In this document: positions 49,404 through 52,148 of the stretch, piece after piece
How the letters are laid out: each line of letters starts with the position of its first letter
Position numbering within the stretch: the first letter of the stretch is position 1
Assembly (NCBI RefSeq): GCF_039655775.1
Contig: NZ_JBBYXJ010000002.1
Span: 310,001 to 374,000 of the forward strand
Direction of reading: 5' to 3'
Length of the DNA stretch: 64,000 nt
DNA from: Iodidimonas sp. SYSU 1G8
Lineage (GTDB): Bacteria > Pseudomonadota > Alphaproteobacteria > SMXS01
Program-made: the position numbers and the translations under genes
The notes under the pieces: generated by a model
Database searches by the model: none
The model's input: the letters and a program-made list of their open reading frames with translations, nothing else
Told to the model about the DNA's origin: nothing

Positions 49404-52148
49404 ATGGCGTGGATCGAACGGGTCTTTTCAGCGGACGGCTTCATGCCGCATGGGCACTGCTACCTGTGGGAACCACATATTCTGTGGCTCCACCTGATTT
49501 CCGACGCCGTCATCGGTCTGTCCTACTTCTCCATTCCCGTCGTGTTGATGCTGTTTTCGGCCAAGCGCGGCGACCTGAAGCTGAACGCGATCTTCTATGC
49601 TTTCTCCGCCTTCATCCTGGCCTGCGGGCTGACCCACCTGTCATCCATCGCGACCATCTGGTACCCGTACTATCTGCCGCAGGGTCTGCTAAAGGGGGTC
49701 ACCGCGGCGATTTCCCTGGCGACCGCGTCGGTGCTCTGGCTGATCCTGCCCCGACTTGTCGCCTTGCCCAGCCCGGCGCGGCTGGCGGCGGCGAACGAGC
49801 AGCTCGCCAACGAGATCGCCCTGCGGCGCGAGATGGAAGCCCTTGTGAAGTCGCAAAATCAGGACCTGCGCGCCGGCAGCCGGGCACTGGCCATGCGAGA
49901 TCACGCGCTGGCCCAGGCGGCGGCGGCCATCGCCATCGCCGACCTGACGGGAGAGATCACCTATTGCAACCAGTCCTTCGCCGATCTGATCGGCCTTGCC
50001 GGACCGGATGAGGCGGTGGGGCTGAACGCCCTTCAGTTCGCGCCCGATGGCGAGGCGGCACTGGGGCAGTTGTTGCAGAACGGCAGGTGGATTGGCGAGG
50101 TCCAGGTGCGCCGGCCCGACGGCTCCGTGCGCGAAACCGCCGTCGCGGCCAGCATGGTCGATTTCGGCGACAGCAGCCCGCACCGGATCATCGCGTCGTT
50201 CATGGACGTCACCGACCAGCGGGAAGTACAGCGCGCCCTCGCCAAAAGCGAGGCGCGCCTCGCCAATGCCCAGCGCCTCGCCCGCATGGGCAATTGGGAA
50301 TGGGATATCACCGCCGATCAGTTCTCCTGGTCCGACGAAGTCCGGGTCCTGTTCTCCATGGCCGACGACGCGGACAGCGGTGGGCTCGCGGGCGTGCTGG
50401 ATTACGTGCATCCCGACGACCGGGAAACCCTGCGCACGCGGCTGAATCGCTGTCTCGCCGGCCCGCCCGGCACCTTTTCCATGGATTACCGTGTGCCGCG
50501 ACCCGATGGCTCTGTCGCGACCATCCATGGACAGGCCGAAACCCTTTTCGATGCCGATGGCAAGGCCATCCGGATGACCGGCACCGTGCAGGATATCAGC
50601 GACCGGGTACAGGCCGAGGCGGCGTCGCGGCGCACCGAGGCGTTCCTTGACCTCATTGTCGAGAACATTCCCGCCATGCTGTTCGTCAAGGACGCGCAGG
50701 AGCTGCGTTTCGTGACCTTGAACCGCGCCGGCGAGGATCTGCTGGGCTACGACCGCACGGAACTGATCGGCCGCAACGACCGTGATTTCTTTCCACCCGA
50801 TCAGGCGGACGCCTTCATTCGCGCCGATCGCGCCGTGATCGCGGCGGGTCGTCCGCTCGTCATCCCCGAGGAAGCGGTGAACACGCGCCATCAGGGCCAG
50901 CGGCTGCTGCGGACCATCAAGATCCCGGTCCATGACGAGGCGGGCGCGCCGCTCTACCTGCTGGGCTTTTCTCTCGATATCACCGAACAGATACAGCTGG
51001 AGCAGCAGTTCCGCCAGGCCCAGAAAATGGAGACCGTCGGCCATCTTACCGGCGGGGTGGCCCATGATTTCAACAATGTGCTGATGGCCCTGCAGCTCAA
51101 TCTGGAAATGGTGCAGGAGCGTCTCGCCGGCGACGAGGAAGGCAGCGACGCGCTGCGTGTCGCGCTGAACGCCGTGGAGCGCGGCGCGGCGCTGACCGGC
51201 CGTCTGCTGGCCTTCTCACGCAAGCAGCCGCTGCAGCCCGCGACCATCAACGTCAATACGCTCGTGCGCGAGATGATGCGACTGCTGCACCGGACGCTGG
51301 AGGAGGACCTGGATGTGGAGACCGTGCTCGCGGCCGGCGTATGGTCCATCGAGATCGACCCGGCCCAGCTTGAAAACGCGCTGATCAATCTGGCGGTGAA
51401 CGCGCGCGATGCCATGCCCGACGGCGGCAAGTTGACCATCGAGACGGCCAACACCCGGCTCGACGACGAGTATGCGCGCCAGTATGACGAGGTTCGCCCC
51501 GGACAATATGTGATGATCGCCGTCAGCGATACGGGAACCGGCATGACGGCGGACGTCCTGGAGCGCGCGTTCGACCCGTTCTTCACCACCAAGGACGTGG
51601 GCAAGGGCAGCGGCCTCGGTCTCAGCATGGTCTATGGCTTCGTCAAGCAGTCCGGCGGTCATGTGAAGATCTATAGCGAGCTCGGTCAGGGGACGACGGT
51701 GAAGCTGTATTTCCCGCGCACCGCCATGACGGCTGCCAGTCCCGACCGCATCGACGCCGCGCTGCCGATCCGCTCCGGCAAGGAAACCGTCCTGCTGGTC
51801 GAGGACGACCCGAGTGTACGCCTCGCCGTGCGCCGTTCCCTCAATGCATTCGGTTACGCGGTGCATTCGGTGGGCAGGGGTGAAGACGCCCTCCAGCTGG
51901 TCCGCGATGGACTGATGCCCGATCTGCTGCTGGCGGACGTTGTGCTTCCGGGGGGCATGAGCGGGCGCGAGGTGTCGGACGCCATCGCCATCCTGGCGCC
52001 GTCCTGCCGGACGCTCTACATGTCCGGCTACACCGACAACGCCATCGTGCATCACGGCCGGCTCGACGTGGGCGTCACGCTGATCTCCAAGCCCTTCACC
52101 CGGCAGACGCTGGCGGCCAAGATCCGCGAGGTGCTGGACGCGGAGTGA
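49404..52148 (+). CDS. hybrid sensor histidine kinase with ethylene-receptor-like (Cu-binding) membrane domain, three PAS domains and REC
   Basis: A 914-residue sensor. Residues about 25-118 form three membrane helices of the ETR1 type: SDAVIGLSYFSIP (Asp34, Tyr41, Pro45) and ILACGLTH (Ile71, Cys74, His78). These match plant ETR1 D25, Y32, P36, I62, C65 and H69 with exactly the same spacing, so Cu(I)/ethylene binding is plausible. Then a coiled linker, three PAS domains (about 165-275, 280-400, 410-535), HisKA with GGVAHDFNN (His554), the HATPase (GSGLGLSMVYGFVKQSGG), and a receiver (LLADVVLP, Asp845). No response-regulator gene is adjacent. AGGGGGG precedes the ATG. Confidence 0.93.
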   Translation: MAWIERVFSADGFMPHGHCYLWEPHILWLHLISDAVIGLSYFSIPVVLMLFSAKRGDLKLNAIFYAFSAFILACGLTHLSSIATIWYPYYLPQGLLKGVTAAISLATASVLWLILPRLVALPSPARLAAANEQLANEIALRREMEALVKSQNQDLRAGSRALAMRDHALAQAAAAIAIADLTGEITYCNQSFADLIGLAGPDEAVGLNALQFAPDGEAALGQLLQNGRWIGEVQVRRPDGSVRETAVAASMVDFGDSSPHRIIASFMDVTDQREVQRALAKSEARLANAQRLARMGNWEWDITADQFSWSDEVRVLFSMADDADSGGLAGVLDYVHPDDRETLRTRLNRCLAGPPGTFSMDYRVPRPDGSVATIHGQAETLFDADGKAIRMTGTVQDISDRVQAEAASRRTEAFLDLIVENIPAMLFVKDAQELRFVTLNRAGEDLLGYDRTELIGRNDRDFFPPDQADAFIRADRAVIAAGRPLVIPEEAVNTRHQGQRLLRTIKIPVHDEAGAPLYLLGFSLDITEQIQLEQQFRQAQKMETVGHLTGGVAHDFNNVLMALQLNLEMVQERLAGDEEGSDALRVALNAVERGAALTGRLLAFSRKQPLQPATINVNTLVREMMRLLHRTLEEDLDVETVLAAGVWSIEIDPAQLENALINLAVNARDAMPDGGKLTIETANTRLDDEYARQYDEVRPGQYVMIAVSDTGTGMTADVLERAFDPFFTTKDVGKGSGLGLSMVYGFVKQSGGHVKIYSELGQGTTVKLYFPRTAMTAASPDRIDAALPIRSGKETVLLVEDDPSVRLAVRRSLNAFGYAVHSVGRGEDALQLVRDGLMPDLLLADVVLPGGMSGREVSDAIAILAPSCRTLYMSGYTDNAIVHHGRLDVGVTLISKPFTRQTLAAKIREVLDAE

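Follow-up and report, generated by a model that had tools for sequence, protein, structure and literature searches.

The window analysed here, 64,000 nucleotides of the genome of Iodidimonas sp. SYSU 1G8, contains at 49404..52148 (+ strand) an open reading frame that runs from an ATG start to a stop at 52148 and encodes a hybrid histidine kinase of 914 amino acids with an N-terminal ethylene-receptor domain. The GC content of its three codon positions (0.69/0.43/0.84) follows the pattern of a coding gene. Upstream lies the gene for a TAP-like alpha/beta hydrolase (47451..49286, +), whose true start is probably further in, and downstream a convergent gene for a double SnoaL-like protein (52152..53234, -); these neighbours form the left and right borders of a conserved site. 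The stretch 52152-53749 encodes tandem SnoaL-like proteins, one of them the double-domain form, which has 18 matches in the genome and belongs to a large family in this lineage. No response-regulator gene is found among the genes adjacent to the kinase. Further along the window, a suhB/mmgR small RNA is present at 63063-63141 on the minus strand (RF00519, 65 bits).

The ethylene-receptor domain, ETR1_N (Pfam PF25487), occupies aa 26-121 (49479..49766, +) and scores 109.8 bits (E 8e-32) against a curated Pfam cut-off of 27 bits. It is followed by three PAS regions, recognised through matches to PAS families in three places, with PAS_4 found in three stretches: PAS1, with approximate limits, lies at about aa 166-275 (49899..50228, +); PAS2 spans about aa 290-398 (50271..50597, +) and includes a PAS_3 match at 308-395; and PAS3 covers about aa 412-530 (50637..50993, +). 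The chain then continues with a HisKA dimerisation and phosphoacceptor domain containing His554 (aa 547-608, 51042..51227, +) and a HATPase_c domain with intact N box and G boxes (aa 652-773, 51357..51722, +), and ends in a C-terminal Response_reg receiver with Asp845 (aa 796-908, 51789..52127, +). A script check of the kinase and receiver motifs found H554 (within AHDFNN), N666, D845 and K896 all intact. A LOV domain is recognised by the flavin cysteine of a GRNC-type motif; PAS3 reads GRND, with the cysteine missing, and was rejected as a LOV light sensor, and Pfam detects no photoreceptor domain in the protein.

All seven residues of the ETR1 ethylene-binding site are found in the kinase by script. 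Helix 1 provides D34, Y41, I44 and P45 (49503..49538 from first to last codon, +), corresponding to ETR1 D25, Y32, I35 and P36, and helix 2 provides I71, C74 and H78 (49614..49637, +), corresponding to I62, C65 and H69. In addition, alignment and script place in helix 3 a lysine implicated in output, Lys97 (49692..49694, +), the equivalent of ETR1 K91 and AzoEtr1 K98. A previous sequence-only reading had named six of the site residues (D34, Y41, P45, I71, C74 and H78), and each is where that reading placed it, but the set it took to be complete overlooked Ile44, the counterpart of ETR1 Ile35, which is reportedly among the seven residues that Wang et al. found in 2006 to be required for ethylene binding. 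The constant shift of nine relative to ETR1 that it described holds for D25, C65 and H69, whose equivalence was traced through AzoEtr1, but not in helix 3, where Lys97 against K91 gives a shift of six. The seven residues are needed for ethylene binding in ETR1 (PMC11819568, PMC6682694), and the helix-2 cysteine and histidine of ETR1_N are the ligands of Cu(I) (PMC11819568, PMC12643061, PMC12744750).

The structure model that had been proposed as a check on the domain and an alignment with AzoEtr1 agree with this assignment. AlphaFold2 predicts helices at aa 24-54, 61-86 and 90-120, followed by another at 124-143, with a mean pLDDT of 88 and values mostly above 90 in the three long helices. The predicted arrangement, a three-helix domain leading through a further helix into the signalling part, is that of ethylene receptors, and placement in the membrane is likewise predicted. 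The sensor aligns with that of AzoEtr1, extracted from the genome of Azospirillum brasilense Sp7, over 121 residues without a gap, of which 56 are identical (46%); the published D35, C75, H79 and K98 of AzoEtr1 fit the extracted protein, and each lies one residue after D34, C74, H78 and K97 of the window protein. No solved relative is available for structural comparison, because a phmmer search of PDB sequences with the sensor domain returned no match up to E 10 and a Foldseek search of the model against the PDB gave only unrelated helix bundles (best E 0.9).

How far can the site be trusted as a property of the family? Among 90 ETR1_N domains found either by pattern or by family, 87 keep all seven residues, a count that is biased for I62 and C65, which sit inside one search pattern, and unbiased only for D, Y, I35, P and H. 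In a sample of 34 domains drawn by profile alone, with no pattern selection, Asp, Cys and His are kept together in 27; of the other seven, six are divergent and score low and one is a partial match that leaves the Asp uncovered, so that a bare Pfam match to ETR1_N is insufficient evidence of the site. At L010, L011 and L157-L160 there are divergent ETR1_N-like domains in which at least one of Asp, Cys and His is gone, and these are probably no longer copper sensors. For the window protein the notion that an ordinary three-helix membrane domain resembles ETR1_N by chance has a negligible probability: the shortness of the domain speaks for it and nothing else does, while seven exact residues and the lack of any ETR1_N match in 14 control genomes speak against it, and the Pfam E-value excludes it.

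The kinase half is of a common type. Residues 498-912 match CckA with 372 bits, far below the equivalog cut-off of 1000, and residues 398-913 match PRK13557 with 438 bits, below the curated cut-off of 631 (both NCBIfam). At this score the protein does not qualify as CckA, and with the GRND of PAS3 it does not qualify as a PRK13557-like LOV histidine kinase. A search of the organism's own genome with aa 399-914 gives, at E up to 1e-80, 21 matches including the protein itself, and relatives of this half are present in every congener searched. The receptor thus looks like an ethylene-binding head mounted on the lineage's common PAS-histidine kinase-receiver chassis.

Within the genus, for which seven genomes were searched (G000-G006, the window's own genome being G000), the receptor gene is present in three (G000, G005 and G006) and missing from G001-G004. 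The site can be read in six of these, three of them with the gene, G002 having no orthologue of the hydrolase or the SnoaL-like gene. In all three carriers the receptor gene lies between the TAP-like hydrolase and the convergent SnoaL-like gene; in G001, G003 and G004 the hydrolase and SnoaL-like genes are direct neighbours, separated by about 20 bases in which nothing is left of the receptor gene, a junction that is seen directly in G004 even though that genome is 78% complete. The outgroup G007 has no receptor gene. In a tree built from five neighbouring genes, G006 branches off first and G000 next, and G005 falls among species that lack the receptor, so the carriers do not form one clade. 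The simplest history that this favours, as read from gene content and the tree, would be a gene present in the ancestor and later lost whole, once or twice, rather than decay of the site; a single loss is just as possible as two, since support for the branch that unites G005 with G001 and G004 is only 69%. Between hydrolase and receptor gene, G005 carries an extra PAS-histidine kinase-receiver protein of 634 aa on the opposite strand (L012:7175-9079), which shares 42% identity with the kinase half of the receptor and does not occur at that place in G000.

The congeneric receptors, of 914 aa in G005 and 829 aa in G006, keep every site residue. Their sensors are 75% (91/121) and 66% (80/121) identical to that of the window protein and their kinase cores 81% (190/236) and 83% (195/235), while PAS2 is the least conserved part in the genus at 37% (40/109) and 43% (40/94), and G006 also lacks the stretch between PAS1 and PAS2. 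The sequence-only reading would have been undermined by random loss of site residues among close homologues; instead, all three congeneric copies are complete and the non-carriers lack the whole gene. It is on these observations that a vestigial ethylene-receptor head, with the kinase really controlled through its PAS domains, has to be judged. Such a history could explain the patchy presence of the gene (three carriers among seven genomes) on a kinase half of a large type with about 20 further matches in its own genome, but it would not be expected to leave a head with its full site at this level of identity when PAS1 and PAS2 have drifted or lost parts, nor to be followed by loss of the gene rather than of the site, and we regard it as quite unlikely. 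The close relatives that lack the gene at the same site offer natural with/without pairs, and a constant sensor and kinase around a drifting middle PAS region should be useful for understanding how the copper domain talks to the kinase.

A second set of genes in the window had been linked to the metal. Between 16.5 and 26.4 kb there are a PepSY protein, three TonB receptors, a DJ-1/PfpI protein and a PCu(A)C copper chaperone; the three TonB-dependent receptors, the chaperone and the DJ-1/PfpI protein lie beside the PepSY protein at 18065-26441, and their metal specificity is putative. Two of the TonB receptors share 39% identity, and none of the three has a match above threshold to a copper-specific model. 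It had been suggested that this island might supply the ethylene receptor with copper. However, 23 kb separate it from the receptor gene, and the two do not occur together across the congeners: close homologues (81-84%) of one TonB receptor and the chaperone are found in G001 and G004, both without the receptor, whereas G006, which has it, lacks the close TonB-receptor homologue and has a chaperone that is merely 49% identical. A functional link was therefore rejected.

The question then is what the copper site senses. A Cu(I)-dependent small-ligand sensor, as the sequence-only reading proposed, is the best inference from the complete ETR1-type site, but the ligand is not predictable from such a site, as other olefins, acetylene and CO bind Cu(I) too. 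The Cu(I) site could be real and its natural ligand another small pi-acceptor (acetylene, propene or CO) or copper itself, ethylene being incidental. Besides the fact that the ligand does not follow from the identity of the site, this would suit PAS regions that could bring further inputs and a genome in which no ACC deaminase was found, so that no plant-ethylene context is visible. Set against it are the binding of ethylene by AzoEtr1, the nearest homologue to have been tested, whose domain aligns without a gap (PMC11819568), and the failure of the window's copper genes to co-occur with the receptor, and overall we consider it improbable. The further step, in which this receptor uses a complete ETR1 site to sense something other than ethylene and the bacterial ETR1_N family is consequently a general Cu(I) gas-sensing module, is somewhat more doubtful still; if true, plant ethylene sensing would be one specialisation of that module.

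On balance, the window protein is likely to be a Cu(I)-dependent ethylene receptor of the AzoEtr1/SynEtr1 type that drives a hybrid kinase, although the absence of the gene from half of the sampled genus counts against this. The sequences establish the domains, the complete site, the intact motifs of kinase and receiver, the orthology of the copies, and constraint on the sensor and the kinase across the genus; we infer the copper, the ethylene, the direction of signalling and the output from homology. By analogy with ETR1 and AzoEtr1, the receptor would dimerise in the inner membrane, where Cu(I) held by Cys74 and His78 and positioned by Asp34 would bind ethylene. Binding would shift helix 3, including Lys97, and alter kinase activity at His554, with phosphate passing to Asp845 of the built-in receiver. 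From there a shared histidine phosphotransfer protein would probably relay it to distant regulators, a route proposed because no response-regulator gene adjoins the receptor gene.

The reading that an alphaproteobacterium combines an ETR1-type site with three PAS domains and a fused receiver is thus upheld by Pfam and the residue check; the rarity it implied is not. Ethylene-binding domains, with outputs ranging from simple to complex, are known from many proteobacteria and cyanobacteria (PMC7700396). A class-wide sample of 378 good alphaproteobacterial genomes has ETR1_N in 30, and a scan of named bacterial genomes gave at least 552 confirmed relatives, of which the best 80 are mostly cyanobacterial, with others including Azospirillum, Sphingomonadaceae, Oxalobacteraceae, Verrucomicrobiota and Myxococcota. 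Given how widespread the domain is in alphaproteobacterial and cyanobacterial genomes, the window receptor is not novel as a kind: it is a good but ordinary ethylene-receptor-type kinase, of a kind already known in bacteria and proven in Azospirillum. The gain, of modest importance, is a lineage of large hybrid ethylene-receptor kinases beyond Azospirillum and cyanobacteria.

A different arrangement is seen in three other alphaproteobacterial families, where a stand-alone ETR1_N protein is encoded with a separate kinase (L161:6693-9576, L162:6588-10608 and L163:6891-10603), in genomes of 2.0-2.6 Mb. The stand-alone proteins, of 138-141 aa, score 127-130 bits and retain 7/7 site residues, and the stop of each gene overlaps or touches the start of a histidine kinase gene. 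The kinases have two apparent membrane helices of their own, with a dCache-like region weakly seen in that of L163, and response-regulator genes follow them. In this split version the ETR1_N subunit is presumably coupled to the separate kinase. We know of no description of split ethylene receptors. Since their binding subunit is a separate small protein, they would be a more direct tool than the window receptor and merit their own study. At one of the three loci, an SCO1/SenC-like frame (L163:6288-6851, with a CPDVC motif recognised by eye) precedes the stand-alone ETR1_N gene by 39 bases, and a role in copper delivery is possible.

Of the known receptors, AzoEtr1 binds ethylene directly: its N-terminal 130 residues bind labelled ethylene, disruption of the gene abolishes binding by cells, and the protein has been studied with 100 ppb ethylene (PMC11819568). 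Like the window protein it has the seven binding residues, a helix-3 lysine (Lys98, aligned with ETR1 Lys91; PMC11819568), a PAS region preceding HisKA and HATPase domains, and an alphaproteobacterial host. Unlike it, AzoEtr1 has 525 aa, one PAS domain and a separate, overlapping response-regulator gene, where the window protein, at 914 aa, contains three PAS domains and a fused receiver and has no adjacent regulator gene. The two domains also lie on different branches of the domain tree, in which the three congeneric ETR1_N domains form a single starred clade (98) apart from AzoEtr1, although resolution is poor in the deeper forks of this tree of a short domain. SynEtr1 (slr1212) of Synechocystis and other cyanobacterial receptors, here likened by description, are bacterial receptors with kinase-dependent signalling and, as in the window protein, one N-terminal cysteine, with about 30 residues ahead of the domain (PMC6682694). 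SynEtr1 is a receptor for both light and ethylene (PMC11819568), whereas the window protein has no photoreceptor domain by Pfam. Plant ETR1, finally, shares with the window protein the site residues, the three-helix Cu(I) domain (predicted here) and the combination of kinase and receiver in one chain, but plant receptors use a GAF domain and CTR1 output where the bacterial protein has PAS domains and a CckA/PRK13557-like hybrid kinase.
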